A stretch of DNA of 64,000 nt from Diplolepis rosae (taxonomy: Eukaryota; Arthropoda; Insecta; Hymenoptera; Diplolepididae), in NCBI GenBank assembly GCA_030998225.1, contig JAPYXD010000391.1:4406501-4470500 (forward strand), given 5' to 3'. Positions 7,262 through 58,814 of the stretch are shown here, piece by piece (the first letter of the stretch is position 1; each line of letters starts with the position of its first letter). The position numbers and the translations under genes were made by a program. The notes below the pieces were generated by a model. It was not told the origin of the DNA. It was given only the letters and a program-made list of their open reading frames with translations, and searched no databases.

Positions 7262-8493
7262 GTGACAAAGTCGTCTCTCAAAGAAGAGATGACATGTGGC
7301 GCTCCTCAAGGGTCGCGGGTGGGTCCACTCGTTTGGAACATCATGTACGATGACTTTCTGCGCATGGACCTGCCTGCTGGAACGAGCATCGTCGGCTTCG
7401 CGGATGACGCACTTGTCGTGTGCGCCGCTGACGACGTCAGAATCCTAGAGCTGAGGATCAATGAAAGTTTGTGGCGAGCGAAGCGCTGGTTGGATAGCAG
7501 AGGCCTTAAAATGGCCCCTGAGAAAACCGAGGCTTTGCTCGTTACGGACAGGAGATCCTTCCAATATCCGAGGATCGTTCTCGGAGAGCATGAAGTCGAG
7601 TGGAAAACAAGCATTAAGTACCTGGGGGTGCAGCTGGATCGTAGGCTTAGCTTTGGCGAACACCTAAAGATCGCATCTGCCAAAGCCATCCAATGTGGAG
7701 CGATCTTGGCCCGGCTTATGCCAAATATTGGTGGACCCAGGGAAGCGAAAAGAAGACTGGTGGCAAGCGTGGTCCATTCGAAGCTGCTTTATGCAGCTCC
7801 GGTCTGGGCCAATGCCTTGCAAAACCATGCTATCCAGAAGAAGCTGTTCTCAGCGCAGAGACTTGTCGCGCTGAGAATAGTTTCGGCATATAGAACTATC
7901 TCGACGAGCGCTGTGCTGGTCCTGGCGAGCGTCCCGCCAATAGATTTATTGGCGGAGGAAAGGCAGGAAACCTTTCAGCTTCGCAAGGAGCTTACCTGCG
8001 CCGACCTGCAGGAAATCGCTCGCGCGAAGGAGGCCATCCGCAAGGATGGAAGGAGCAGACTCGTCGAGAAATGGCAGTTGAGATGGCATGGTGAGCAGAC
8101 AGGGAGATGGACCTACCGCCTGATCCCGGAGCTCGCCACCTGGCTGAACAGAAAGCACGGGGAAGTCGGCTTTTACTTAGCACAAGCGCTCTCGGGCCAT
8201 GCTTGTTTTAACGCGTACCTAGGCGCTTTAAGAAGAGATACGAGGAGACGTGTTGCTACTGCGATTCCCCGGTGGATAACGCAGAGCACGCACTCTTCGT
8301 CTGCGCAAAATGGGGTGTGGCTAGGGAGGTCCTCGGTCAGGTGGTGGGTTCCGAACTTACTCCTGACACGATGGTCCCCCTCATGCTCCAGTCTGAACGG
8401 TTCTGGACGCTCATCGAGTCATTCGTCACACTTGTGATGAAGACGAGAGAACTTGATGGGCGTCGAGATCGAAACAACGGGGAGGGCCAGTAG
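7262..8493 (+). pseudogene. Reverse transcriptase C-terminal half, copy A
   Basis: From the 5' junction the frame encodes the palm and thumb of an R1-clade-like reverse transcriptase: the GAPQGSRVGPLVWN motif near the start, then the FADD catalytic motif (7398-7409), which is intact in this copy. One base is missing near 8237 relative to copy D, so the reading shifts. The C-terminal zinc-knuckle region resumes in another frame at 8272-8493. There is no native start codon; the frame opens at GTG in flanking DNA. Non-functional by truncation and frameshift. Confidence 0.88.
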
Positions 8494-8862
8494 AAATCGC
8501 ATCGGGGCCTGCACCTGCGGTCCCGCGTCTCGGGTAGACTTGACTGTCCGTGTCGTTCGGGGGAGGAATCTGTTTGTTTCTCCCCTGGGTGGCGCGGCTA
8601 GTCGGTTATCCTAGTGGGCGTGTGGCCGCGGAAGGAAGTTCCGAGCGAACGGATGACGGAAGAGTCGTACGCGACTTTAATGGAACCAACCACGCGTGAA
8701 GTTTAAAGCCGAAAGGCGGTTCCGCGGGTGGTGTATTGGTTCGAGAGAGGGGGTTTTTTGGTTTTAACAGGTATGCCTAGACCCGTCCTAGGAGAGTCCT
8801 GTACAACGTCTATAAAAGATTTTGCCATTTTTCCTCCTCACAAAAAAAAAAAAAAAAAAAAA
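7270..8862 (+). mobile_element. Non-LTR retrotransposon copy A (R1-like), 5'-truncated
   Basis: A 3' fragment of a non-LTR element with a long GC-rich 3'UTR and a 21-nt poly(A) tail (8842-8862). It starts within the reverse transcriptase domain. Comparison with the uninterrupted opposite Maverick terminus (about 30990-31050) suggests roughly 15 bp of target were lost instead of duplicated, with microhomology at the 5' junction. Confidence 0.85.
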
Positions 8863-9870
8863 GTAGTTTTTGTGAATGTTTGGAGTCAGTAAGATAATTT
8901 CACGAGTTTTTCAATTGTTAAACTAAGCGCTCTGCGTGATACGAACGATGCGCTGACGCTCTGGCATCATCAACATTTCTCGCTTTAGTTCGTGTTGGCA
9001 TAGAAAATAAAAAAAAAACACGTTTTAGCGTAAATGAAATACTGGGACAGAAAATTTAGTTTTAAATGCATTCAGCCCTGAATTTATTTTCTTCGAGGTG
9101 AAAACATCATTTTGGCTGTATTCGAGCTTTAAGGCAAAAAAAGTTTTAGTCTTTCTATAAAAAAGTTTTAAAAAAGTGTATAAAATATTAATGAAAGTTA
9201 TTAACAATGTTGCGTGCACACCACCATATCGAAAAAGGCATAAAACGTAGCAGAAATGAAAATATGTGAGCCTGTCGCGTCAACAAAAACGCTTGAAATG
9301 CTGTATGTTGAAAATCAAAATCATATTCATAAATTGCTTTGTAACTGTATTATCAAAAAGATGTTTGGGTTCACTATTCACTCTACAGTATTTTACAGTT
9401 TACTAGTTTTTTGGAAAATTCTGGAAGATTATGACGTCATAGAGCCTCTTTTTAGGCTAAATGGCGAGGTTTTTTGGAAGTTTCTGGAAGTTTAAAATGT
9501 CATAAAGCCTCTTTTCATGCTAAATTGTGAGTTTTATGGAAGGCTCTCGAAGCTTATGACGTCAGAGAGTCCTCATTTGGTACATGTCCGTGCTAAATGG
9601 TAAGATTTCTGGAAGGTTCTCGAAGCTTATGGTATTACACTATATCCTGTGATTTCGTTGAAGGGCAAACGATTAAAAAATATTCCTTGGAAATAGAGAG
9701 GTGGGATATAAGAATGCATTCGTTATATTGTTTAACGTTTAGGATGTTTACGGTAATAAATAAATTAGATATGAAAAATGCCCAAGCGCAGGACAAATGA
9801 ATTATAAAATATTTCTTGGAAATATAGAGGCGGGATGTGAGAATGCATCTTATATTGATTAACGTTCAAA

Positions 9871-16189: not shown

Positions 16190-16975
16190 AAATGTCAAAT
16201 TTAAATTTTTTTAAAAATTTTAGTAACTGAATAATTAACCTTTTTTCAAATGTGAATCTTCATTGTATTCTACTGAATAATTGAAATATTTTTTAGAAGA
16301 ATTTTACGATTTTTTGTATCATGTTTAACCCAAGGGTTGAATTCAGTAAAACTCTTCTACAAAATATTTTAATTACTCAGTAGAATACTATGAAGACTTA
16401 CATTTAAAAAGTATTAATTATTCACAGATACTAATATTTTTTGTAAAATCGACCTTGTACCCCTCAAAGAATTTTATTTTATAAAAATGTCAACTTTCAA
16501 TCTTGTCAGAAAATTTTAGTAACTGTGAATAATTAACCCAAGAGTGGAATTCAGTAGATTTTAAAAAAATATTTTAATTATTCAGTACACTTTTTTATGG
16601 CATAAATTGGAAAAATGTTTGTAGTATGATTCCTCTTATAGCAGTCGACCGGCAATCGAAAGACCTGGGCTCGAATCCCAGCGCAGTCAAAAGCATCTTT
16701 TTTTCCACAGAAAGATTTTTAAATTCTTTAAATATTTGAATTCAATTGCTTTATTTGCGATATAAGAGTTTGAAATTGTCTAAGAGGACACCTGTCGACA
16801 ACGTATTCTATCTGATACGCGACTAGAGGACCTCCGATAATGTAAGCAGTGACAAGAATTTCAAACTCACCTAATTCAGTACAATAGTATGAAAACTCTT
16901 ATTAAAAAAAAAATTAATTATTCAGTGACTAAAATTTTCTGAAAGGATTTGAAATTTAACATTTTTTTATAAAAT
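16190..16975. repeat. Palindromic AT-rich repeat interrupted by a tRNA-like unit
   Basis: Several inverted pairs share TTATTCAGTAG.ATAC and AAAATATTTTAATTA (for example 16258-16310 with 16345-16405). A second pair, 16493-16545 and 16905-16965, shares CAGAAAATTTTAGT. A 240-bp partial copy of the 339-bp unit seen at 41.7-44.8 kb sits inside (16641-16880). Confidence 0.7.
16641..16880 (+). repeat. Single, 5'-truncated copy of the 339-bp tRNA-like unit
   Basis: Begins at GCAGTCGACCGGCAATCGAA, so the D-arm half of the cloverleaf is missing. It keeps the T-arm (GGGCTCGAATCCCA) and the unit's downstream section (TTTCCACAGAAAG, GACACCTGTCGACAACGTAT). It is more diverged than the array copies, so it is an older member of the family. 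Confidence 0.85.
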
Positions 16976-16977
16976 GT

Positions 16978-17804
16978 GTGTACAGCTGCTACTTCTCTCC
17001 CAACGATACTTTCGAGGTCTTCGAGACCCAGATCCTCCTTGAGGAAAGCCTCAGAGAGGCTAGTGGGCGGTCCACTGTGGACGCTATCCAAGCTCTGGTT
17101 AACATCGCCACAAATGCAAGAAATGGAACTGGTAAGCGTAAGGGATTCTGCACGTTGATCAGCATTGACATACGCAATGCATTCAATACCGGGAGGTGGA
17201 ATATCTGCATCGAGGCGATAATGCGGAAAAATGTTCCAGACTACCTGTTGCGAATGATAGATGGCTATCTGAGCGTTAGGTGGGTGATGTATGAGGGCGA
17301 CAAATGGTCTTTCAAAGAAGAGATGACATGTGGCGCCCTTCAAGGGTCGCGGGTGGGTCCAGTCGTTTGGAACGTTATGTACGACGATTTCTTGCGCATG
17401 GACTTGCCTGCTAGAAAGAGCGTCATCAGCTTTGCGGATGACGCGCTTGTCGTGTGCGCCGCTGCCGACTTCAGAATCCTAGAGCTGAGGATCAATGAAA
17501 GTCTGTGGTGAGCAAAGCGCTGTTGGATTGCGGAGGCCTAAAAATGGCCCCTGGGAAAACCGAGGCTTTGCTTGTTACGGACAGGAGATCCTTTCAATAC
17601 CCGAGGATCGTTCTCGGAGAGCATAAGGTCGAGTGGAAAACAAGCATTAGGAACTTGGGGATGCAGCTGGATCGTAGGCTTAGCTTAGGCGAACACCTAA
17701 AGATCGCAGCTGCCAAAGCCATCCAATGTGGAGCAAACTTGGCTCAGCTTATGCCAAACATTGGTGGACCCAGGGAAGCGAAAAGGAGATTTACTTATTT
17801 TTAA
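16978..17804 (+). pseudogene. Non-LTR reverse transcriptase fragment, copy B
   Basis: R1-like similarity is clear from about 17060 (GRSTVDAIQA) to 17796. It covers fingers and palm, with FADD intact at about 17440, and a TGA at 17509-17511 with the reading resuming in another frame. The 80 bp before 17060 are not the normal upstream sequence. Both ends are cut: no 5' start, no 3'UTR and no poly(A), so this is an internal fragment left by deletion or rearrangement. It lies inside the Maverick between polymerase and capsid remnants. Confidence 0.85.
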
Positions 17805-20367: not shown

Positions 20368-22722
20368 GAGATTTACCCGCTCAAAGGGTGATTCTCTGCT
20401 GCGCGAGGCATGGAAAAGGGCAAAAGCAGCTTTGAGGCAAGGCATAAAGAAAAGCCGACTTCAATTCTGGAAAGACTTGATCGGTGAGGTCGAGAAGGAC
20501 CCATGGGGTCTCGCCTTCAAAATAGTCACCAAGACATTGGTAGCTAGAAGAAAGGCCCCGGGCCTGGATAATCCCGATCGAGTCAAGTACATTGTGCGAA
20601 GCTTTGTTTCCACACGTGGAGCCGTTCCAAAGACAGGACCGAAGTTCCTGCGTGGTCTGGCGCGAGGAACTCTTCACTCTTGAGGGACTAAAGAGAGCGG
20701 GTGGAAGGCTTAAGGCAAATACAGCGCCGGGTATCGACGGGGTGCCGAACGAGATCCTCAAAGAGGTGATCGGGGCATACCCGGAGATCCTCCTGGAAGC
20801 CTTCAGCTCCTGTCTTCGGGAGGGGAGGTTCTTCGTAGACTAGAAGAAGCAGAAGTTGGTCCTGCTGAGGAAGGGCAACAAAACTCTAGAAGATGCCTCA
20901 TCCTATACATCTATTTGTTTACTGGATACAATGGGGAAGCTCCTAGAGGAAATGATCCTACAAAGACTACAGGGTCACATGGTCGGCAAGAACGGTCTCT
21001 CGGAAAACCAGTTCGGCTTTTGGAAAGGCATTTTAGGCAATTTAGGCCACTAAAGCAAGAAGAGGAACTGATAAGCGTAAGGGATTCTGCGCGTTGATCA
21101 GCATTGACATACGCAATGCGTTCAATACCGCGAGATGGAACATCTGCATCGAGGCGATGATGCGGAAAAAGGTTCCAGACTACCTGTTGCGAATGATAGA
21201 TGACTACCTGAGCGACAGGTGGGAGATATACGAGGGCGACAAGTGGTCTCTCAAAGAAGAGATGACATGTGGCGCCCCTTAAGGGTCACGGGTGGGTCCA
21301 CTCGTTTGGAACGTCATGTATGACGATTTCCTACGCATGGACCTACCTGCTGGAAGGAGCATCATCGGCTTCGCGGATGACGCACTTGTTGTGTGTGCCG
21401 CTGACGACGTCAGAATCCTGGAGCTGAAAATCAATAAAAGTCTGTGGCGGGCAAAGCGTTGGTTGGATAGCAGATGCCTGAAAATGGCCCCTGAAAAGAC
21501 CGAGGCTTTGCTGGTCACGGACAGGAGATCCTTCAAATACCCGAAAATCGTTCTCGGGGAACATGAAATTAAGTGAAAAAACAGCATTAAGTAACTGGGT
21601 GTGCAGTTGGATCGAAGGCTTAGCTTCGGCGAACACCTGCATATCGCGACTGCCAAAGCCATCCAATGTGAAGCCGCTGACTCGGCTCATGCCCAACATT
21701 GGTGGCCCCAGGGAAGCTAAGAGAAGGCTGGTGGCGAGCGTGGTAAATTCGAAGATGCTTTATGCAGCTCAGGTCTGGACAAGTGCCTTTAACAACCATG
21801 CTATCCAGAAGAAGCTGTTCTCGGCACAGAGAGGTGTGGTGACGAGAATTGTCTCAGCATACCGAACTGTGTCGACGAGTGCTGTGCTGGTCCTGGCGAG
21901 CGTCCCGCCAATTGACTTATTGGCGGAGGAAAGGAAAGAGACCTTTCAGCTCCGTAAGGAGCTCACCTGCATAACCAACCTGCAGGAAATCGCTCGCGCG
22001 AAGGAGGCCATCCGCAAGGATGGAAGGCGCAGACTCGTCGAGAAATCGCAGACGAGATGGCATGGTGACCAATCCGGGAGATGGACACACCGTCTAATCC
22101 CGGAGCTCGCCACCTGGCTGGATAGATAGCACGGTCAATTCGGCTTATACCTGGCGCAAGCGCTTTCGGTTCATGGTTGCTTTAATGCGTACCTGAAGCG
22201 CTTCAGGAAAAGAGACGATGACTCGTGTCGCTACTGCGGATCTCGTGTGGAAAATGCAGAGCACACAGTCTTTGTCTGTGCCAGGTGGCACGCTGGTGAT
22301 GGAGAGGAGGGAGCTCGATGGGCGTGCAGAGCGCGGCAACAACGAGGGCCAGTAGAAATCGCATCGGGGCCTGCACCCGCGGTCCTGCGTCTTGGGCGGA
22401 CTTGGATGTCCACGTCGATCGGGGGAGGAATCTTTTTACTCCTTCCCTGGTTGGCGCGGCCAGTCGGGCTGCCTAACGGGCGTGTATCCACGGATGCGAG
22501 TACCGGACGAACAGATGACGGAAGAGTCGTACGCGACTTTAAGCTGGAACCAACCGCCGCAAAGTTCAAAGCCAAAAGGCGGTTTCGCGGACGGTGTATT
22601 GGTTCGAGAGAGGGGGTTTTTAGTTTTAACAGGTATGTCTAGACCTGCCCTAGGAGAGTCCTGTACAACGTCTATAAAAGATTTCGCCACTTTTCTTCCT
22701 CACCAAAAAAAAAAAAAAAAAA
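20368..22722 (+). mobile_element. Non-LTR retrotransposon copy C with 13-bp target duplication
   Basis: 5'-truncated but the longest copy here, starting upstream of the reverse transcriptase domain. It ends in the family 3'UTR and poly(A) (about 22705-22722). Target duplication ATTCCTTTTTTCA (20355-20367) / ATTCCCTTTTTCA (22723-22735), one mismatch. It inserted in the opposite direction to the capsid-type gene that it splits. Confidence 0.92.
20380..22360 (+). pseudogene. Non-LTR ORF2 remnant, copy C
   Basis: Reads through the linker upstream of RT (LREAWKRAKAALRQG, DPWGLAFKIVTKTL), fingers (TAPGIDGVPNEILKE), palm with FADD (near 21373) and thumb. Stops and shifts occur at about 20681, 20841, 21050, 21280, 21575 and 22126. 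Compared with copy D about 150 bp are deleted near 22290, removing the region after the zinc knuckle. Dead. Confidence 0.85.
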
Positions 22723-22754
22723 ATTCCCTTTTTCATCAAAACATTCTGTAAATA

Positions 22755-29924: not shown

Positions 29925-31190
29925 GGTATCCCACCTTTCTATTTCCAAGAAATATTTTTCACATAATTTGTCCTTCGCTTTGACATTTTTTCATATCTAA
30001 TTTATTTATTACTATAAACATCCTAAACGTTAAACAATATATCGAATGCATTCTTATATCCCACCTCTTTATTTCCAAGAAATATTTTTCAATCGTCTGC
30101 CCTTCAACGAAATCCACAAACGTCGAGTTCTTTCTAGACGCCAACTTCCCCTATACTTCGAGAACCTTCCAGAAATCTTAAAATTTAGCACGGGCATGAA
30201 CCGAATAATGTCTCTCTGACGTCATAAGATTCAAGAATTTTCCAGAAAATCATCGAAATTTAACATTGATACTGACCAAATGACGATGTCTCTCTGACGT
30301 CATAAGCTTCGAGAACCTTCCATAAAACTCACAATTTAGCATGAAAAGACGCTATATAACGTCATGAACTTCCAGAAACTTCCAAACAACCTCGCCATTT
30401 AGCTTAAACAGAAGCTCTATGACGTCATAATCTTCCAGAATCTTCCAAAAATCAAGGCTTCGGAAATAGTCTCGAGTGTCGGTAAATGCCGGTGCTGGAA
30501 TTTGCATTCATTGGAAAGGATAACGTGGAAATCATTTCGAACTTTATCAGATTTCTGATCTTCAAACAAAAAGTAATACATTTCTTTAATTACAGCAAAA
30601 CCTATCGTAGCCAATATTCCACTCTGACGCGTCACGTTATTGGTCAGAAAATTCGCGTGGTTACGGCAGGCTGAAACACTGGCTCCTTATATTTTTGTAA
30701 AACATTTTGGAAGAAATAAAAAATAAAAAAATGAATAATTCAAATTTTATGGGCGTTCAACTTATTACTATTGTATAGCCTTGTTTTGAAACATAATGAA
30801 CCTTTACATAAATAAAATTAGAACATGTAATTTCTTTTATTGCACTTACTCCTAGATTGAACGCTTACGGAACCAGTTCCAGCGCGTCAGCGTATCGTTG
30901 GAATCACGCGGAGCGCTTAGTTTAATAATTGAAAAACTCGTAAACTTATTTTATTATTGACTCCAAACTTTCACAAAAACTGCTTTAAACTATTCTTGAC
31001 AACTTTCTTACTGAAAGTTTGCGGAAACTTGAATAGTCAAAGACTTTCTCACTTACTGAAAAATGAAAAACCCGGTTCTTTGTCGAATCAGTTTATAATT
31101 AAGTAAACATTAGAACAAGAGGATTTTCAAATTTTTCAAGACTTCGTCCGTATCGGAGAAGTTCGAAGAACGTCTGTGTCGATAATAAAA
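29925..31190 (-). repeat. Maverick right terminal inverted repeat
   Basis: Uninterrupted partner of the left terminus. It preserves the pre-insertion sequence of the site occupied by retrotransposon copy A on the left, and carries the same TGACGTCA blocks (about 30291-30300, 30420-30428). Confidence 0.85.
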
Positions 31191-38880: not shown

Positions 38881-40017
38881 ATTTTCATCATATGAGAAAA
38901 TATTGGTTTTAGTGAAAAATCACATTCGAAATTTTCATTAAATCTTCACGTTCAGACACTCCCTGGGTCAGAAAAAACGGTTCATTTCACTATATTATGC
39001 AAGTTTCAATACATAAGCTTAAATAAACTTATTTTGACGTAAATATGAAGTAAATAATTTTTTATAATTTTATAGATCAGTAATAATGAAACAGGACTTA
39101 TATCGACCCTTAGTATTAATATTCAAATATTGTTGATGTTCTTAGTTGGCTTTAGGGTCCAGAAAAAATGTAACTCAAAGTTTCATATTTTCAAACGTTT
39201 CGACTCAGATTGGAGTCCTCATCAAAACTTAAAAAAAAATTTGTATGAAAATACAAAGGGAAAAAAACTTAAAAGTTTGCACGTGTAACCAATGAACATT
39301 GTGGTAAAAATTATATAAAAAAATTGCAAGTGTGAAACTATAAAATTTGTCTAAATAACTAAATTTGCAACAACAAAAAAATGAAAACTGTACAAACGTT
39401 TTCTTGTAAAAATACTAAGGGGAGAGAGCTAAGAAATTGCACGTGTGACCGACGAACATTGTGGCACAGAATGACATAAATGAATTGTACATGTGAGATA
39501 CTATAAAATTGATCTAAACTAAATTCAACAAAATAAAAACTGTGAATAAAAAGTCTAAAAAAATTGTGAACTCATCACAATAAAATATCACCGGAACAAA
39601 AACTGACCTGTTATTTGTTTAAGTGAAGAACGATATGAAAACTGTAATCAGGGTTGCCACAAGTTTCAGTATCCTAATTTCCCTGACTTTTCCCTGACTT
39701 TTCAAGCTGATTTCCCTGACCAAAATCTATTGTAAGAGGACTCATCTCGGTGGAACTATGTTCCTATTATATAATATTTGCGTGTTTTTCCCTGTTATTT
39801 TTCAACAGAGAGGATGTTAAATAAGAGAAGGTAAGATAGAAACAACGTATTTCTATTTATTTATTTTTTATCAAAACTTAAAAGGAAACGAACTGGTATG
39901 CCATAACTTGCATGTTGCCATCGAACGTTAAACATAAAAAATGGCATCACAGGAAATTTATAACTTTTTGGTTATATCAATCACAGCGGGGTCAACTTAA
40001 AGAGATCAATCTTACAT

Positions 40018-40229: not shown

Positions 40230-41689
40230 TAGTTAATTAACAAAATAAAAATTATAAAAATATTTATCTGAAACCTAACGTAATAAGCTAAAAAATGAAA
40301 CAAACCCGAAATCGATTTAATTATTTCAACCGGAGATAATGAATTTTAAGCACAAGAGACTTTAGCATTTTGTCCAATTTTATCAAAAGTTTAAATTAAT
40401 ATATCTCTCAAAAAATTTTTTTTTTCGAAAATCCTGATATATGTGTCGATTAAATTAATAAAAAGATGCCACAGAATAAAATTTAAGACTTTTAAAAATG
40501 TGAACAATCTTCTTTTTTTGAAATCCGTACGATTTGCAAAGGAATGTCCTATATAAGTTACAATAAAAGTTTATGTAATATTATTTTTTTTTTAAAGTTC
40601 TCATTTCATAATTAGTTTATACATGCTTGTTCTGCAAAATCAACTTGACAGAATAGAGTAATAAAGTTTCGTTGTTCTTACTTCCAAATTACTTTACAGA
40701 CATTTATTCTTATTATAGCTACTTTTCTTTTGAAAAAAGTATTCCAGCACGTCATCCTTCAAAAATTTTCGCCAATAACAGAGTAAATAACAAATTACCA
40801 GTTTTACTGCCTATTTACCGAATTACGGTAAGAAATTACCAGTGACCAAAAAATGGCGGTATCGGCACATCACTAGTCCAGAAGCAAAGGCCGAACCATG
40901 TTTGCCTAGCAAGAGGAGCACTTACTGTCGTTTAGCCGTAAGAATGTGAAACCACGCGAGTATACGCAGAACGTGGATGTTTTCGGCCTCCACCACTGAC
41001 CCGTGTGGATCTGCACACAATCAAACTTCGTTCAAACGTGGCGCGAAGCAGAAGACATATTTAAAATGACTAAATATATAATTTAAGAAATTACCCTCCT
41101 TTTTTTGATGTTTTAAAAAACCTTCACCTAAAATGAATATCTAAAAGATTTTTTTCGAATTTTAGGATGATTTAAACACTTGAGAAAAAAAATGTTCAGT
41201 AAAATGTATAGTTCAATAAATGTTAAAAGCTTCAAAACAAAATATAGATTTATATATTTTTTAGTATTGTAAATAAACTATTTAAAATGAAAAATTATGC
41301 CTAAAATACTTTATATTAAAATGTTATAAATATAAGAAACATAAATTGTATTTAAATTTACACACAAAATTAGACAATAAGATTTTTTTGATAGAAAGCA
41401 ACATGAAAAAACATTAAATTCCAATAAAATATTCTTTAAAGTTTTTGAAATATGTAACATTTTTTATGAAATGTCGTTTTCGAATCCCAAGTGCGAATAA
41501 GAGGTTTCATTGTTTGAAAAGAAATCATGCCTAAATTTGGATACGAAATTACATCATAAGATTTCTCTGCTGTGAAGGAAAGTTGAAGAATATTTCGTTC
41601 AAATAAAGTGCTTCGAAACAAATTTTTTAATATATATTTTATTATATTTTTTCAATATATTAGTGTAAATAAAGGGTTAAAATTAATTA

Positions 41690-44600
41690 GTTGAGTTTGA
41701 AATTTTTTCCACAGAAAGATTTTCAAATTCTTTAAATATTGAATTTATTTGCATTATTTGCGATATAAGAGTGTGAAATTGTCTACGAGGACACCTGTCG
41801 ACAACGTATCCTATCTGATACGCGACTAGTGATCCTCCGATAATGTAGGCAGTGACAAAAATTTCAAACTCAACTAATTAATTTGGAATCATTTACAGCC
41901 GCAAGGCTGAGCCACTAGGCGATATAAGGAGATCTTCCTGTGGAGAAAGAGATGTCGGACGCCTGTGTAGCTCAGTGGTTAGAGCAGTCGACCGGCAATC
42001 GAAAGACCTGGGCTCGAATCCCAGCGCAGTCGAAAGCGTCATTTTTTCCACAGAAAGATTTTCAAATTCTTTAAATATTGAATTTATTTGCATTATTTGC
42101 GATATAAGAGTGTGAAATTGTCTACTAGGACACCTGTCGACAACGTATCCTATCTGATACGCGACTAGTGATCCTCCGATAATGTAGGCAGTGACAAAAA
42201 TTTCAAACTCAACTAATTAATTTGGAATCATTTACAGCCGCAAGGCTGAGCCACTAGGCGATATAAGGAGATCTTCCTGTGGAGAAAGAGATGTCGGACG
42301 CCTGTGTAGCTCAGTGGTTAGAGCAGTCGACCGGCAATCGAAAGACCTGGGCTCGAATCCCAGCGCAGTCGAAAGCGTCATTTTTTCCACAGAAAGATTT
42401 TCAAATTCTTTAAATATTGAATTTATTTGCATTATTTGCGATATAAGAGTGAGAAAAGGTCTACTAGGACACCTGTCGACAACGTATCCTATCTGATACG
42501 CGACTAGTGATCCTCCGATAATGTAGGCAGTGACAAAAATTTCAAACTCAACTAATTAATTTGGAATCATTTACAGCCGCAAGGCTGAGCCACTAGGCGA
42601 TATAAGGAGATCTTCCTGTGGAGAAAGAGATGTCGGACGCCTGTGTAGCTCAGTGGTTAGAGCAGTCGACCGGCAATCGAAAGACCTGGGCTCGAATCCC
42701 AGCGCAGTCGAAAGCGTCATTTTTTCCACAGAAAGATTTTCAAATTCTTTAAATATTGAATTTATTTGCATTATTTGCGATATAAGAGTGTGAAATTGTC
42801 TACTAGGACACCTGTCGACAACGTATCCTATCTGATACGCGACTAGTGATCCTCCGATAATGTAGGCAGTGACAAAAATTTCAAACTCAACTAATTAATT
42901 TGGAATCATTTACAGCCGCAAGGCTGAGCCACTAGGCGATATAAGGAGATCTTCCTGTGGAGAAAGAGATGTCGGACGCCTGTGTAGCTCAGTGGTTAGA
43001 GCAGTCGACCGGCAATCGAAAGACCTGGGCTCGAATCCCAGCGCAGTCGAAAGCGTCATTTTTTCCACAGAAAGATTTTCAAATTCTTTAAATATTGAAT
43101 TTATTTGCATTATTTGCGATATAAGAGTGTGAAATTGTCTACTAGGACACCTGTCGACAACGTATCCTATCTGATACGCGACTAGTGATCCTCCGATAAT
43201 GTAGGCAGTGACAAAAATTTCAAACTCAACTAATTAATTTGGAATCATTTACAGCCGCAAGGCTGAGCCACTAGGCGATATAAGGAGATCTTCCTGTGGA
43301 GAAAGAGATGTCGGACGCCTGTGTAGCTCAGTGGTTAGAGCAGTCGACCGGCAATCGAAAGACCTGGGCTCGAATCCCAGCGCAGTCGAAAGCGTCATTT
43401 TTTCCACAGAAAGATTTTCAAATTCTTTAAATATTGAATTTATTTGCATTATTTGCGATAAAAGAGTGTGAAATTGTCTACTAGGACACCTGTCGACAAC
43501 GTATCCTATCTGATACGCGACTAGTGATCCTCCGATAATGTAGGCAGTGACAAAAATTTCAAACTCAACTAATTAATTTGGAATCATTTACAGCCGCAAG
43601 GCTGAGCCACTAGGCGATATAAGGAGATCTTCCTGTGGAGAAAGAGATGTCGGACGCCTGTGTAGCTCAGTGGTTAGAGCAGTCGACCGGCAATCGAAAG
43701 ACCTGGGCTCGAATCCCAGCGCAGTCGAAAGCGTCATTTTTTCCACAGAAAGATTTTCAAATTCTTTAAATATTGAATTTATTTGCATTATTTGCGATAT
43801 AAGAGTGTGAAATTGTCTACTAGGACACCTGTCGACAACGTATCCTATCTGATACGCGACTAGTGATCCTCCGATAATGTAGGCAGTGACAAAAATTTCA
43901 AACTCAACTAATTAATTTGGAATCATTTACAGCCGCAAGGCTGAGCCACTAGGCGATATAAGGAGATCTTCCTGTGGAGAAAGAGATGTCGGACGCCTGT
44001 GTAGCTCAGTGGTTAGAGCAGTCGACCGGCAATCGAAAGACCTGGGCTCGAATCCCAGCGCAGTCGAAAGCGTCATTTTTTCCACAGAAAGATTTTCAAA
44101 TTCTTTAAATATTGAATTTATTTGCATTATTTGCGATATAAGAGTTTGAAATTGTCTACGAGGACACCTGTCGACAACGTATCCTATCTGATACGCGACT
44201 AATGATCCTTCGATAATGTAGGCAGTGACAAAAATTTCAAACTCAACTAATTAATTTGGAATCATTTACAGCCGCAAGGCTGAGCCACTAGGCGATATAA
44301 GGAGATCTTCCTGTGGAGAAAGAGATGTCGGACGCCTGTGTAGCTCAGTGGTTAGAGCAGTCGACCGGCAATCGAAAGACCTGGGCTCGAATCCCAGCGC
44401 AGTCGAAAGCGTCATTTTTTCCACAGAAAGATTTTCAAATTCTTTAAATATTGAATTTATTTGCATTATTTGCGATATAAGAGTGTGAAATTGTCTACTA
44501 GGACACCTGTCGACAACGTATCCTATCTGATACGCGACTAGTGATCCTCCGATAATGTATAGGCAGTGACAAAAATTTCAAACTCAACTAATTAATTTGG

Positions 44601-44789
44601 AATCATTTACAGCCGCAAGGCTGAGCCACTAGGCGATATAAGGAGATCTTCCTGTGGAGAAAGAGATGTCGGACGCCTGTGTAGCTCAGTGGTTAGAGCA
44701 GTCGACCGGCAATCGAAAGACCTGGGCTCGAATCCCAGCGCAGTCGAAAGCGTCATTTTTTCCACAGAAAGATTTTCAAATTCTTTAAA
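41690..44789 (+). repeat. Tandem array of a 339-bp unit, nine tRNA-like copies
   Basis: Period is exactly 339 bp for eight steps and 341 bp for the last, where a TA insertion makes GTATAGGCAG near 44557. Copies differ at only a few positions (e.g. GAGAAAAGGT at 42450, GATAAAAGAG at 43457, a variant eighth unit around 44147-44214), implying recent amplification or homogenisation. Each unit holds, in order, TTTCCACAGAAAG, a TTTGAAATTGTC...GACAAAAATTTCAAA inverted pair, and a 72-nt tRNA-like block. Unit edges both lie near TAAATAAAGGGTTAAAAT (41667 and 44784). The minus-strand 66-codon frames that recur in each unit are by-products. Confidence 0.95.
41961..42032 (+). tRNA. tRNA-like sequence, first of nine (GGC anticodon position)
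   Basis: 72 nt with a perfect pol III box A (TAGCTCAGTGG) and near-perfect box B (GGCTCGAATCC). A cloverleaf can be drawn: 7-bp acceptor with one mismatch, D-stem GCTC/GAGC, anticodon stem with one mismatch and loop CCGGCAA, T-stem CTGGG/CCCAG. Position 33 is C instead of the invariant U and GGC is not a normal eukaryotic Ala anticodon, so a functional tRNA is unlikely; a tRNA-derived SINE head fits better. Other copies start at 42300, 42639, 42978, 43317, 43656, 43995, 44334 and 44675. Confidence 0.6.
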
Positions 44790-45269
44790 TAAAGGGTTAA
44801 AATATTTAATAAATATATACATATACACTATATTTAAATATGCATACAAAATAAAACTGAAATTTCTTTGGTATGAAGCAAAATTATTAATTATTTAACG
44901 CACTTTTTTGAATGATAGTTTTATCGATAAACATTACGGAAATCCCTGTTAAAATTAACATTTTGAAGAAAATTTCTTATTTTATTAGTTTAACAGGCAT
45001 TCCTTAGCGAATTTATAAGTTGCACACGCAGAAAAAAGTTTAGTAAAATTTACAGAAAGTTCAGTACTTATTTTTACAAATTGAATTTTGAGTAGATATA
45101 TTACCAGAAATCTGGTGCAATGAACAGTTTTTTTGTACAGTCCACTTAACTTCCAGTGAAAGCTACCAAACTTGATTTTTTTCGTATCTGATAGATTTCA
45201 CTGCATGCTAAGGGAAACGTACAGAAAATATGTATACATGCACATGCATCAACTTTTGTTTCCAAAATT

Positions 45270-45440: not shown

Positions 45441-46430
45441 GAGCAGAAAATACCTAGCTCTTAAATACTTCAATACATTTCCTAAAAAGCTAGTTTTTTT
45501 CCATTCTATAGAGTTTTTGAATTTTCAAATTAAGTCTCTGCATATACAACAAAAACACAATATTTATTTTAAACTTGAACCTCATATTTATTGTAAAACA
45601 CAATTTTGTGCATAATTTTTAAATTACAATAATAGATTTAAAAGATACACAAAGTTTAAATCGATATATATTTTTTTAATTATTAACATTTCTTGACTTT
45701 CAAATGTTAATGCAAAATCATATTTCAAGTGTCTAAATCATTCTAAAAAGTTAACAAAATTTTTCAGGTATTTTTTTTGGGCAAATATTTTTCAAAATAT
45801 ATGAAATCAAATAATTTAAGTTATTATTAAATAATTTAAATTTAAATTAAATATTCCATAAATAATGAATTGGCGTGTCTTTTGCGCTTTTTTTGCGTGG
45901 AGTCAGGAAAAACATACATAATTTTACTGAGTCAACAATTTTAAATAGTTATAGCACAAAATTTTTGCAAATTTAGTAGATATTTTAATACAATTCACCG
46001 CTTTTTGGAAAGTATAATACATTTGCTGATAATCATTACCAAAATGCCAGTAAAATTAATAAAATAAGCAATTATCTTCAAAATGTTGATTTTAACAGGC
46101 ATTTCCGTAATATTTATCGACAAAACTATTATTTAAACAAAATTTGTTTCGAAGCATTTTATTCAAAGGAAACAGTCTTCAACTTTACTTTATAGCAGAG
46201 AAATCTCATGATGTAATTTCGTATCCAAATTTAGGCATGATTTTTTTTTAAACAATGACACCTTTTATTCACATTTGGGATTCGAAAACGACATTTCATA
46301 AAAAATGTTACATATTTCAGTCAGTTCCACGATCTGAGAACACTTTTGCTAGCCTGTGTCTGCTGCGGCGAGTTAACCGAGCAAGAAGGAAGAAGAGTTG
46401 GAAAAACTGACCGCGGCACAGTGAAACGCA

Positions 46431-46709
46431 CACGGAGAAACTTTTTATATCAATTTTTACTATAGTATTTTTCAATTTAGGGAAAAACGTATCACATTGA
46501 GAATTTTTGTTAGTAACAATACTAAACTTTATAATAATGATATGAAACTTGAGCATAGTTCATAGCAAATTTTACTATAGTTCATACTAAAGTTTTATAT
46601 CATTATTGTAAAGTTTAGTATTTTTACTAACAAAAATTCTCAAAGTGATACGTTTTTCCCTAAATTGAAAAATACTATAGTAAAACTTGATATAAAAAGT
46701 TTCTCCGTG
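46431..46709. mobile_element. 279-bp palindromic MITE with CACGGAGAAA ends
   Basis: Nearly the whole element is a palindrome (arms about 125 bp; shared GGGAAAAACGTATCAC). Its ends match those of the MITE at 13227-13769 over CACGGAGAAA, and both carry an ACTATAGTA-like motif near the end. The flanks read CAGTGAAACGCA and CAGTAACGCA, which could be a 10-12-bp duplication; the simple TA seen for the relative is absent. Confidence 0.85.
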
Positions 46710-48362
46710 CAGTAACGCACGATCTGGCCACAGCGATTCCCTGACTAAACCTTAAATTCCCTGACTTTTCCCTGACTTTTCCAGACCACTACGATTTCCC
46801 TGACTTTTCCCTGACTTCCCTGACTTCCCTGACTTGTGGCAACCCTGTGTAAATAAAAGGTCTAAAAAATGTTAACTTATCACAATAAAATATCACCAAA
46901 ACAATAAAATTGACCTGTTATTTGTTTCAGTAAAAAACGATATAAATGAATTGTGCATGTGATATACTATAAAATGGGTCTAAACTAAATTTACAAAAAA
47001 TAAAAACTGTACAAAAATTTTTTCTATAAAAATCTAAAGAAAAGAGACTTAAAAAATTGCACGTGTGACGTATAACCATTGTGGAAAACGATATAAATCA
47101 ATCACATATGTGAAGCTGTAAAAATGTTTCTAGATATAGGTATCAGAACATTCAACTCAATTCAATTCAATCTTAATCTTGCGATAATGTGACTGAATAA
47201 AAAACCCCCAGTCACATGTTTCGGTAGATTGCGGTAGAAATTTATAACAGTTATATTCAGACTGTTTATGACTCGTTTCAAATTTCATAGCCCTCTTTTG
47301 TGACAGTATCCTGGTCATCTTGTTGACATCATTACACACTTTTTTTTCTCTCGTTTCCCAACAAACGAGACTCTCCAAAGTAAAAAACTTCACCCTCCAC
47401 TTTACTAAGCTTTTTCCAAGGTTGTTGCCAAATGCAACTCAGTTTTGAAGAAAAATCCGTAGTGACAGGATTGTATATACAAAAATTATGTGGTCACCTT
47501 GTTCCCGACGAAATAAAAGAAAGAAAAAAAGGAAATTTATGATTATGTCATTCCAATTATTTTCTTATTTTTTTTTTTTCACCAACGATTTGTCCCTCTA
47601 CTCAATCAAATAACAGGTCAGTTTTTGTTTTGGTGATATTTTATTGTGATGAGTTCACGGGTTTTTAGACTTTTTATTCACTGGTCTTATTTCGTTAAAT
47701 TCAGTTATTTTTAGAACATTTTTACAGTTTCACGTGTGTAATTGATATATATATATAGTTTCCCACAATGATTATACGTCACACGTGGAATTTTCTAAGT
47801 CTCTTCTCTTTGGATTTTTATAGAAACAATTTTTGTGCAGTTTTTATTTTTTGTAAATTTAGTTTAGACCAATTTTATAGTATATCACATGTACAATTCA
47901 TTTATATCGTTTTTTACTTAAACAAATGACAGGTCAATTTTTTTGTTTTGGTGATATTTTATTGTGATGAGTTCACATTTCTTAGACCTTTTATTCACAG
48001 TTTTTATATCGTTCTTTACTTAAACAAATAACAGGTCAGTTTTTGTTTCGGTGATATTTTATTGTGATGAGTTCACAATTTTTTTAGACTTTTTATTCAC
48101 AGTTTTTATTTTGTTGAATTTAGTTATTCTAGAACAATTTTACAGTTTCACATGTGCAATTGATTTATATCAGTTTGTACCACAATGTTCATCGGTCACA
48201 CGTGCAAATTTTTTAAGTTTCTTCCTTTGTATTTTTTATAGAAATAAATTCTCACTGATGAAGACTCCAATTTGAGTCGAAACGTTTGAAAATATGAAAC
48301 TTTGAGTTAGATTTTGTCTGGACTCCAAAGCCAACTAAGGACATCAACAGTATTTGAATATT

Positions 48363-48602
48363 TATAGATTAGTTACACTATCTAAAAAAGTGTACCAAAA
48401 AGATGGGTTAGAACTCGTATTTCAGTTCTGGTCGTTTATTATTCATATTTTTTACCCATTCTGGGTCAAATTTCTCTCTGTATACATGAAATAAAATTAT
48501 TTACGTTTTTAATGTGTTGAAACTTGCTTAGCATAGTAAAATAATTGTTTTCATTCATGAGGTATACCTACATCTTAATGATAAGAAATTATCCAATTCA
48601 TA
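48363..48602. other. Spacer between foldback and ISL2EU-type element
   Basis: Too short and AT-rich for a gene; no motif seen. The TA at 48601-48602 is the left target duplication of the next element. Confidence 0.5.
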
Positions 48603-55639: not shown

Positions 55640-56717
55640 GGCCTCATGAACAATCAGCGCCCCTAGCGGCCACTGTCAATTCTTGTGACATTTTCTTTTC
55701 GCGGATTACGTGCATTTTGGCTAAGATGCAGGGGGCTGCTTATGACCAGCCGTATGCATCAGAAAATAAAATGGCGCCCCGTTAGTGTCCTAAGTTGAAT
55801 TCCTAAGTTAGTTTGCCGAATCGTCACACGCGGCGCTAACTATATCATCACTCCCAGAAAATTCACAGTAATATACAGAGAATTTAATATAAAAATTTTT
55901 TAAAATATATTATTCAATGACATAAAGAAATAAAAGACATGAGACTTTAAATTTTATTTATTATTATCATATCATTTTTTTGAGGCAAAATTAAGTTGAA
56001 AAATGGTAAAAGAATGAGAAATTCTGAACAAGAAATTAAGAAACTGTAATCATTTTTACCTGGATGCTGTGAAAGTTTAAATTTAGGGAAACAAAGTTGT
56101 AAAAGTTCAAATTCGTGAAATCATTCATAAAAAAAATATAAAAATACTTTTAATGTATTTCTAAGTTACATATTTTCTATTTTGTTTCTGATAATTAATT
56201 TTCACAATTTGTGGGATCCGCTTTTTAGGTATCAAAATACTTTGAATTTTTACAACTTTTTGTTTCCCCAAATTTCAACTTTCACATTTCGTGAATGTTA
56301 GAGACGATGAAAACGGACGTAGATAGACTACTTTTGGTTTTGAAAATGAAAAAAAATTTAATTGTTCTTATTATACTGTTTTCATTAATGTTATTTAACT
56401 ATTTTCAAAATATAAATTAATATTCTCCTTTTTTTATATTCTATTTTCTTTAATTATTCATAATGATTTAATAACTAATTTAATAACTAATTACAACTCT
56501 CATCAACTTCATTCCTTGTTCAGAATTTTTCATTTTTTTCCATTTTTCAACTTAATTTTATCTCAAAAAAATAATTTAAATGCATTGATATGTAGACGAT
56601 TAAATACAAAAATTTAAAAAAGTTATTATTCAATGCCAAAAAGGAATAAACGAGATATTAATATTTAAATTCCAATATCAGCTAAATGTTTGAAAATAGT
56701 TTTTGTACGAGATAAAT

Positions 56718-58436
56718 ATGAATAAAAACCCGGAGATCCTCCTAGAAGCCTTTAACTCCTGTCTTCGGGATGGGAGGTTCTTCGCAGATTGGAAGAAGCA
56801 GAGGTTGGTCCTGCTGAGGAAGGGCAACAAACCTCTAGGGGTTGCCTCGTCGTATAGACCAATATGCTTATTGGATACGATGGGGAAGCTTCTGGAGGAG
56901 TTGATTCTACAACGGCTTCAGGCTCTCTTGGTCGGGGAGAACGGGCTCTCGGAAAGCCAGTTCGGATTCAGGAAAGGCAGATCCACTGTGGACGCCATCC
57001 AAGCTGTGGTTAACATCGCCACAAATGCAAGAAAAGGAACTGGTAAGCGTAAGGGATTCTGTGCGTTGATTAGCATTGACATACGCAATGCGTTCAATAC
57101 CGCGAGATGGGACATCTGCATCGAGGCGATGATGCGGAAAAATGTTCCAGACTACCTGTTGCGAATGATGGATGACTATCTGAGCGACAGGTGGGTGATA
57201 TACGAGGGCGACAAATGGTCTCTCAAAGAAGAGATGACATGTGGCGCTCCTCAAGGGTCGCGGGTGGGTCCACTCGTTTGGAACATCATGTATGATGACT
57301 TCCTGCGCATGGACCTGCCTGCTGGAACGAGCATCGTCGGCTTCACGGATGACGCACTTGTGTGCGCCGCTGACGACGTCGGAATCCTAGAGCTGAGGAT
57401 CAATGAAAGTCTGTGGCGAGCAAAGCGTTGGTTGGATGGCAGAGGCCTTAAAATAGCCCCTGAGAAAACCGAGGCTTTGCTCGTTACGGACAGGAGATCC
57501 TTCCAATATCCGAGGATCGTTCTCGGAGAGCATGAAGTCGAGTGGAAAACAAGCATTAAGTACCTGGGGGTGCAGCTGGATCGTAGGCTTAGCTTTGGCG
57601 AACACCTAAAGATCGCAGCTGCCAAAGCCATCCAATGTGGAGCGAACTTTACCCGGCTTATGCCAAACATTGGTGGACCCAGGGAAGCGAAAAGGAGATT
57701 GGTGGCCAGCGTGGTCCATTCGAAGCTGCTTTATGCAGCTCCGGTCTGGGCCAATGCCTTGCAAAACCATGCTATCCAGAAGAAGCTGTTCTCGGCGCAG
57801 AGACCAGTCGCGCTGAGAATAGTTTCGGCATATAGAACTATCTCGACGAGCGCTGGGCTGGTCCTGGCGAGCGTCCCGCCAATAGATTTATTGGCGGAGG
57901 AAAGGCAGGAAACCTTTCAGCTTCGCAAGGAGCTTACCTGCGCAGACTTGCAGGAAATCGCTCGCGCGAAGGAGGCCATCCGCAAGGATGGAAGGCGCAG
58001 ACTCGTCGAGAAATGGCAGATGAGATGGCATGGTGAGCAGACAGGGAGATGGACCTACCGCCTGATCCCGGAGCTCGCCACCTGGCTGAACAGAAAGCAC
58101 GGGGAAGTCGGCTTTTACTTGGCGCAAGCGCTTTCGGGCCATGGCTGTTTTAACGCGTACCTGAGGCGCTTTAAGAAGATAGACGAGGAGACGTGTCGCT
58201 ACTGCGATTCTCCGGTGGATAACGCGGAGCACGCACTCTTCGACTGCGCAAAATGGGGTGTGGCTAGGGGGGTCCTCGATCAGGCGGTGAGTTCCGAACT
58301 TACTCCTGACACGATGGTCCCCCTCATGCTCCAGTCTGAACGGTTCTGGACGCTCATCGAGTCGTTCGTCACACTTGTGATGAAGACGAGAGAACTTGAT
58401 GGGCGTCGAGAGCGAAACAACGGGGAGGGCCAGTAG
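56718..58436 (+). CDS. R1-like reverse transcriptase, N-terminally truncated
   Basis: 572 codons without a stop. The ATG at 56718 is in the duplicated target, not in the element, and happens to be in frame. Order: RT fingers from NPEILLEAFNSC, palm motif ALISIDIRNAFNTARW (first catalytic Asp), GAPQGSRVGPLVWN, the catalytic box as FTDD instead of FADD with one Val codon missing downstream, thumb, and a C-terminal CCHC zinc knuckle (CRYCDSPVDNAEHALFDC, near residue 490). The endonuclease and ORF1 are absent. Ala to Thr before the Asp pair and the codon loss may impair activity. The clade is judged from motif resemblance to R1/TRAS-type elements. Confidence 0.88.
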   Translation: MNKNPEILLEAFNSCLRDGRFFADWKKQRLVLLRKGNKPLGVASSYRPICLLDTMGKLLEELILQRLQALLVGENGLSESQFGFRKGRSTVDAIQAVVNIATNARKGTGKRKGFCALISIDIRNAFNTARWDICIEAMMRKNVPDYLLRMMDDYLSDRWVIYEGDKWSLKEEMTCGAPQGSRVGPLVWNIMYDDFLRMDLPAGTSIVGFTDDALVCAADDVGILELRINESLWRAKRWLDGRGLKIAPEKTEALLVTDRRSFQYPRIVLGEHEVEWKTSIKYLGVQLDRRLSFGEHLKIAAAKAIQCGANFTRLMPNIGGPREAKRRLVASVVHSKLLYAAPVWANALQNHAIQKKLFSAQRPVALRIVSAYRTISTSAGLVLASVPPIDLLAEERQETFQLRKELTCADLQEIARAKEAIRKDGRRRLVEKWQMRWHGEQTGRWTYRLIPELATWLNRKHGEVGFYLAQALSGHGCFNAYLRRFKKIDEETCRYCDSPVDNAEHALFDCAKWGVARGVLDQAVSSELTPDTMVPLMLQSERFWTLIESFVTLVMKTRELDGRRERNNGEGQ

Positions 58437-58786
58437 AAATCGCATCGGGGCCTGCACCCGTGGCCCTGCGTCTCGGGTAGACTTGGCTGTCCGCGTCGTT
58501 CGGGGGTGGAATCTGTATGTTTTCTCCCCTGGGTGGCGCGGCTAGTCGGTTTGCCTAGTGGGCGTGTGGCCGCGGATGTAGGTTTCGAGCGAACGGATGA
58601 CGGAAGAGTCGTACGCGACTTTAATGGAACCATCCACCCGTGAAGTTTAAAGCCGAAAGGCGGTTCCGCGGGTGGTGTATTGGTTCGAGAGAGGGGGTTT
58701 TTTGGTTTTAACAGGTATGCCTAGACCCGTCCTAGGAGAGTCCTGTACAACGTCTATAAAAGATTTTGCCATTTTTCCTCCTCACC

Positions 58787-58814
<28 letters not shown>
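56729..58814 (+). mobile_element. Non-LTR retrotransposon copy D with 12-bp target duplication
   Basis: 5'-truncated insertion. Target duplication TATGAATAAAAA at 56717-56728 and 58815-58826; 28-nt poly(A) at 58787-58814. Its 3'UTR is shared with copies A and C, ending TATAAAAGATTTTGCCATTT. The duplication is perfect and the frame is open, so this is the youngest of the four copies. Confidence 0.95.

Follow-up and report, generated by a model that had tools for sequence, protein, structure and literature searches.

Satellite DNA can have SINE-like sources, and these have been reviewed (PMC9659126). In squamate reptiles, tRNA-related SINEs have given rise to tandem arrays known as sSat, which comprise from a few to many units and are described as having formed locally (PMC10702118). 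The available text of the same paper also presents tandem repeats of amphibians with a tRNA-like part and units of 200-360 nt, namely PolIII/TAN of the newt (about 360 nt), OAX of Xenopus, Rana/polIII, and Hy/polIII. The transition from a dispersed retroelement to a satellite is mostly argued from end products. The locus described here lies in a stretch of 64,000 nucleotides of Diplolepis rosae (assembly GCA_030998225.1, contig JAPYXD010000391.1, positions 4,406,501 to 4,470,500 of the forward strand), hereafter called the window. It retains a target duplication, an inversion joint, edge units with ancestral states, and a dispersed relative; with these four traces at one locus, the birth of the array, as an insertion followed by growth, can be ordered. 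The explanation that we consider best, and on balance probable, is that the repeated unit is a non-autonomous, tRNA-derived, SINE-like retroelement that was inserted by LINE machinery with twin priming and then grown into an array.

The tandem array and its tRNA-like unit

Tandem Repeats Finder places the array at 41702-44791 of the forward strand (period 339 bp, 9.1 copies, 99% matches). It is composed of nine full units and a further 36 bp, and the unit-to-unit joints are exact head-to-tail. Successive unit starts are separated by 339 bp in eight cases and by 341 bp in one, the last full unit being 341 bp long. A sequence-only reading of this DNA had described nine near-identical copies at a fixed 339-bp period from position 41690 onwards. 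The copies and the array stand, the spacing is not strictly fixed, and the left limit falls inside an inverted 28-bp piece (41680-41707) that was absent from that description.

Each unit carries a tRNA-like cloverleaf on the forward strand, located at 41961-42032 in unit 1 and starting at 42300, 42639, 42978, 43317, 43656, 43995, 44334, and 44675 in the others. All nine score 56 bits with the Rfam tRNA family RF00005, for which the cut-off is 29 bits, and ARAGORN reports nine tRNA-Ala(ggc) and zero other tRNAs in the whole window. The unit has box A (TAGCTCAGTGG) as well as box B (GGCTCGAATCC), like the tRNA-related head of a tRNA-derived SINE; its box B differs from the consensus at one base. 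Nothing convincing was seen by eye for a second tRNA within the 81-bp leader or for box A/B on the minus strand. In the aligned copy the anticodon loop is CCGGCAA, with C at position 33 and GGC at the anticodon position, and the acceptor and anticodon stems each contain one non-standard pair. The cloverleaves, the intact boxes, and the C33 and GGC that set the loop apart from real tRNAs had all been noticed from the sequence alone and are borne out. The proposal of a satellite built from a tRNA-derived or SINE-like unit was also largely right, since both the tRNA derivation and the satellite-like homogeneity are supported. A SINE-derived satellite is recognized by at least four tandem monomers from a SINE-like element; here there are 9.1 units in one array, together with a dispersed single copy.

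U33 is conserved in working tRNAs. Working tRNA-Ala(GGC) genes, clustered here and maintained for translation, would agree with nine identical cloverleaves of 56 bits, with a T6 terminator, and with a TATAAG upstream, but a functional tRNA gene has U33 and sound stems, whereas the unit has C33 and mismatches in the acceptor and anticodon stems, and it is also present as a truncated, retroposon-like copy. On these grounds such a cluster is rejected as extremely unlikely; the array is likely not a tRNA gene cluster by function.

The remaining parts of the unit, given here for the forward strand, follow the cloverleaf in a regular order. A T6 run, the likely pol III terminator, begins at unit position 82 (42042-42047), 9 nt past the tRNA, and is found in every unit. 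Next comes an AT-rich tail module with a hairpin (42048-42218), whose presumed 3′ terminus, CTAATT, ends at unit position 258; the single copy and the inverted left edge stop here. The 81 bp between this terminus and the next tRNA (42219-42299) presumably act as a 5′ leader and contain TATAAG 38 nt upstream of the tRNA. At the site of the T6 run the single copy has T7, which indicates that the ancestor already had a T run after its tRNA. In tests on the B2 SINE, TTTT terminated 65% of pol III transcription, T5 was effective, and termination rose to nearly 100% when TTTT was lengthened by one T, as given in the available text (PMC8466645). With a T6 run located 9 nt past the tRNA, these data lead to the expectation of pol III RNA without the downstream module, and the product, if any, should be short and tRNA-like instead of covering the whole unit. 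The earlier idea of a multi-copy pol III transcription array thus keeps its box A and box B, while whole-unit transcription becomes doubtful. A tRNA-derived SINE gives a pol III RNA of the whole element with no internal terminator; because of the T6 run (T7 in the single copy), the unit is called SINE-like here and not a SINE. Around the tRNA, ATCTTCCTGTGGAGAAAGAGATG and the T6 region form an inverted repeat with a score of 28 (shuffles 14.4 on average, s.d. 2.9); since the best of 1000 shuffles scored 37, nothing is built on it.

Array edges, single copy, and surrounding elements

The array is bracketed by an 18-bp target-site duplication, TAAATAAAGGGTTAAAAT, whose left copy (41666-41683) and right copy (44786-44803) match exactly on the forward strand. 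These 18 bp are the longest exact direct repeat spanning the two edges of the array, and there is no further copy anywhere in the window. When 2984 pairs of stretches were drawn at random from the window, no pair shared as much as 15 bp; the longest match was 14. The inverted piece at the left edge consists of 28 bp on the minus strand, with a 100% reverse-complement match to the 3′ end of every unit. All three joints show overlaps: 4 bp between the target duplication and the inverted piece on the left, 6 bp between the inverted piece and the first forward unit in the middle, and 6 bp (TAAATA) between the last unit piece and the duplication on the right. In twin priming, one target end primes at the 3′ terminus of the RNA and the other inside the RNA, where a few bases match; the two products are joined in the same way. 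The 18-bp duplication, the inverted 28-bp 3′ end, and the overlaps at the joints fit LINE-type insertion by target priming, with an inversion through twin priming.

The perfect inverted repeat formed by the left 28 bp and the end of each unit, with TTAA at both, could alternatively be read as the signature of an internally amplified MITE with AATTAATTAGTTGAGTTTGAAATTTTT terminal inverted repeats and a TTAA duplication. A MITE has inverted repeats at both outer ends, but the right edge of the array extends 193 bp past the last inverted end, and it is at that outer edge, which has no inverted end, that the 18-bp duplication sits; the single copy, moreover, is truncated on the left and has the right end only. 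This reading is highly unlikely and is rejected on both counts.

The single copy is located at 16640-16876 (forward strand) and ends at CTAATT, a stop that the inverted piece of the array shares within a few bases. Identity to the unit extends to 222 of 241 aligned columns; the 236 aligned columns of unit positions 23-258 show 17 substitutions, and there is a single 1-bp gap. The copy is truncated at its 5′ side, where the first 22 of the 72 tRNA positions are missing, box A included, and its tRNA remnant (17 bits) is under the Rfam cut-off. It is flanked by an imperfect duplication on the forward strand with 15 of 18 positions identical, the left copy (16622-16639) abutting the element and the right copy (16885-16902) starting 8 nt past the 3′ terminus. 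As 12 of 400 random pairs equalled this score anywhere in 55-bp stretches, the duplication is weak by itself, and its position adds support. Target-site duplications and 5′ truncation, both features of tRNA-derived SINEs, are therefore found in this family (18/18 at the array, 15/18 at the single copy). The second insertion at 16640, with the common 3′ terminus, the truncation, and the 15/18 duplication, supports the insertional origin of the array. The tRNA part contains one of the 17 differences in 50 of the 236 columns (P of one or none, 0.089), a weak suggestion of constraint between the array and the single copy. The diverged copy that the sequence-only reading had placed at 16641 is thus real, and its view that the family is older than the array is supported: with seven variant events in nine units and 7 to 8% divergence from the single copy, the array is young compared with the family.

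Both copies are situated in a nest of animal mobile elements. Ten frames of the window were tested, and the domains found in them include LINE reverse transcriptase, a mariner-type transposase, DDE_Tnp_4/HTH_Tnp_4, and YqaJ. For the LINE protein at 56700-58436 there are 769 relatives in the database; among the best 120 of these, the named ones are from insects and one (Lucilia cuprina) is called R1. Copies of one R1-like LINE are found at 7264-8862, 17071-17791, 20779-22723, and 57210-58807 (84-96% alike), and the three 3′ ends examined all have poly(A). The array itself is flanked by an older inverted pair, with arms at 41446-41640 (forward strand) and 46122-46319 that are 89% alike over 198 bp. 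Both the array and its AT-rich surroundings of about 150 bp are missing from the right arm, which places the array within additional sequence of the left arm. Wider inverted pairs also enclose the array, in agreement with the earlier placement of the array inside a transposon, as far as location within a nest of inverted-repeat elements is concerned. A perfect 15-bp inverted repeat, CAGGGTTGCCACAAG, is present at 39649-39663 and 46833-46847, with TTCCCTGACT repeats within each end (39678-39703 and 46757-46835); these ends resemble those of a hAT- or P-like element, 7.2 kb long, that would contain the array. Outside it there are long inverted arms (39114-39648 and 47993-48366, 84-89% alike) with inner 100-bp repeats, which have a foldback-like appearance. 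Elsewhere in the window, inverted arms with 63-bp tandem repeats (9403-9574 and 30285-30456) enclose about 21 kb with an Endonuclease_7-type match, other frames, and many insertions; this is perhaps a Polinton-like element, a name given tentatively. A near-perfect palindrome with 139-bp arms (46431-46569 and 46571-46709, 91% complementary) has a spacer of 1 nt.

Proposed growth and origin of the array

The tRNA parts are identical in all nine units, and the full units differ in ten columns, which were counted as seven events by merging three near changes in unit 3 and taking a 2-bp insertion in unit 9 as one. At unit columns 71/85 the single copy has T/G, as does unit 8, unit 1 has G/G, and units 2-7 and 9 have G/T. 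Units 8 and 1 retain states that are also present in the single copy, and units 2-7 and 9 are derived. Copying of one template in a single pass would leave private changes only. The older states near the edges and the spread of derived units therefore speak against a single pass, and both unequal exchange or duplication after insertion and the insertion of an already mixed concatemer fit. All seven events are confined to unit positions 64-145, one quarter of the unit (42042-44414), with P about 0.0013 if changes are assumed uniform, in a test picked post hoc; simple exchange gives no explanation for this clustering.

Insertion of a ready-made array, from a LINE that copied a concatemeric RNA or went around a 339-nt RNA circle as proposed for retrozymes, is the principal competitor, and we regard it as rather unlikely. 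In its favour, the duplication brackets the entire array, the unit junctions are exact, and metazoan retrozymes are described, in the available text, as tandem units of 150-450 bp that sometimes have target duplications of more than 4 bp (PMC7229834). The unit was also closed to a circle and folded, each strand being compared with 100 dinucleotide shuffles. The plus strand folds at -103.4 (shuffles -75.1, s.d. 4.9), but the minus strand too folds better than its shuffles (-90.7 against a mean of -73.8, s.d. 5.4; z -3.1), so that inverted repeats in the DNA account for part of the fold. Further against this explanation, the nested ancestral and derived units do not suit one pass over a template, a difficulty that a mixed concatemer would avoid. 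A retrozyme has a self-cleaving hammerhead in each unit, yet the motif CTGANGA is absent from both strands of the unit, and in 41640-42420 no ribozyme matched Rfam up to E 10, the matches there being to tRNA and, weakly and below their cut-offs, to other families. With its defining motif missing, a hammerhead retrozyme is rejected. A ribozyme-free counterpart, in which the tRNA enzymes of the cell would cut and close the RNA in place of the hammerhead and the strongly folded 339-nt RNA with its tRNA-like part would be inserted by a LINE, from circles or concatemers, as ready-made arrays, is improbable; the involvement of RNA circles or concatemers, if real, would mean that tandem retroposition has a further route, one that needs no ribozyme. 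An error of assembly or polishing in the copy number is more improbable still. Near-identical 339-bp units are hard to count, and the changes of unit 3 and the insertion of unit 9 could be errors, but the array has clean boundaries and unit-specific variants, some of them shared with the single copy.

In the preferred explanation, that of a SINE-like retroelement inserted with twin priming and then amplified, the element would be the unit of about 339 bp, made up of the presumed 81-bp leader, the tRNA-like head, the T6 run, and the structured tail ending in CTAATT. The RNA of this element would have been reverse-transcribed into the target at 41666 by a LINE, with the target itself as primer. 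Synthesis of the first strand, starting from the 3′ terminus of the RNA, would have covered only about 28 nt, and the other target end would have primed within the RNA at TAAATA, giving the inverted remainder. Twin priming would account for the opposite orientations of the array and the 28-bp end: in a minus-strand insertion, the 28 bp would represent the upright 3′ portion and the array the inverted 5′ portion. The insert would have exceeded one unit length, with its two ends overlapping by 36 bp, and most of the growth to the present nine units would have followed later, through unequal exchange or local duplication, which would also have kept the units similar. A short pol III RNA ending at T6 may be transcribed from each tRNA head, and whole-unit transcripts would have to come from read-through or another promoter.

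Several points weigh on the other side of this explanation. The argument is built on one array and one single copy, and the first expansion would have been limited to 36 bp of homology. The ancestor, with its T run, already had no direct pol III route to full-length RNA, unlike a standard SINE. Between the 3′ terminus of the single copy and its right duplication there are 8 unexplained nt. As for a partner LINE, no 3′-end match was found among the LINEs of the window, where the R1-like ones end in poly(A) and the unit does not.

Comparison with described systems

Searches for the unit gave zero matches in phage records (blastn), in viral contigs (two patterns), and in genome contigs (one pattern), and three letter strings searched in the text of papers matched only an unrelated yeast paper. 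In the literature searched, as far as the available texts extend, a tRNA-like array with a bracketing target duplication and an inverted 3′ end was not found. The squamate sSat arrays, like the array in the preferred explanation, have grown in tandem from tRNA-related SINEs, in a different animal group from the host of this array. In all of them, as described in PMC10702118, the repeat (about 70-290 nt) falls short of the SINE in length, whereas the unit here seems to hold the whole element and a leader. The main text of that paper contains none of the terms 'TSD', 'target site', and 'rolling', while the present array is bracketed by a target duplication. The amphibian pol III-type repeats resemble the array, by description, in their tandem units with a tRNA-like part, and PolIII/TAN is similar in length; it is transcribed in vitro and, in the available text, has no known related SINE (PMC10702118), whereas the array has a separate retroposon-like copy.

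Metazoan retrozymes, as presented in PMC7229834, are like the array in their low-GC, non-coding, non-autonomous tandem units of 150-450 bp and in the sometimes longer target duplications; the array differs from them by its tRNA-like part, with no hammerhead or other Rfam ribozyme found. A tRNA-like head such as that of the unit is known in insect tRNA-derived SINEs, for example HaSE1 (PMC3272025). According to the available texts, SINEs of the HaSE1 and Sbg9 type also have 5′-truncated copies and target duplications of 5-17 bp (PMC3272025, PMC9191728), and joined SINEs are known in dimeric form, such as Sbg9 of the cockroach (PMC9191728). The unit departs from these insect SINEs in the T6 run right past the tRNA, in its nine-fold tandem form, and in the inverted 3′ end. 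Taken as a whole, the comparison suggests that the array is a neat case of a known kind, seemingly on its way to becoming a small satellite.
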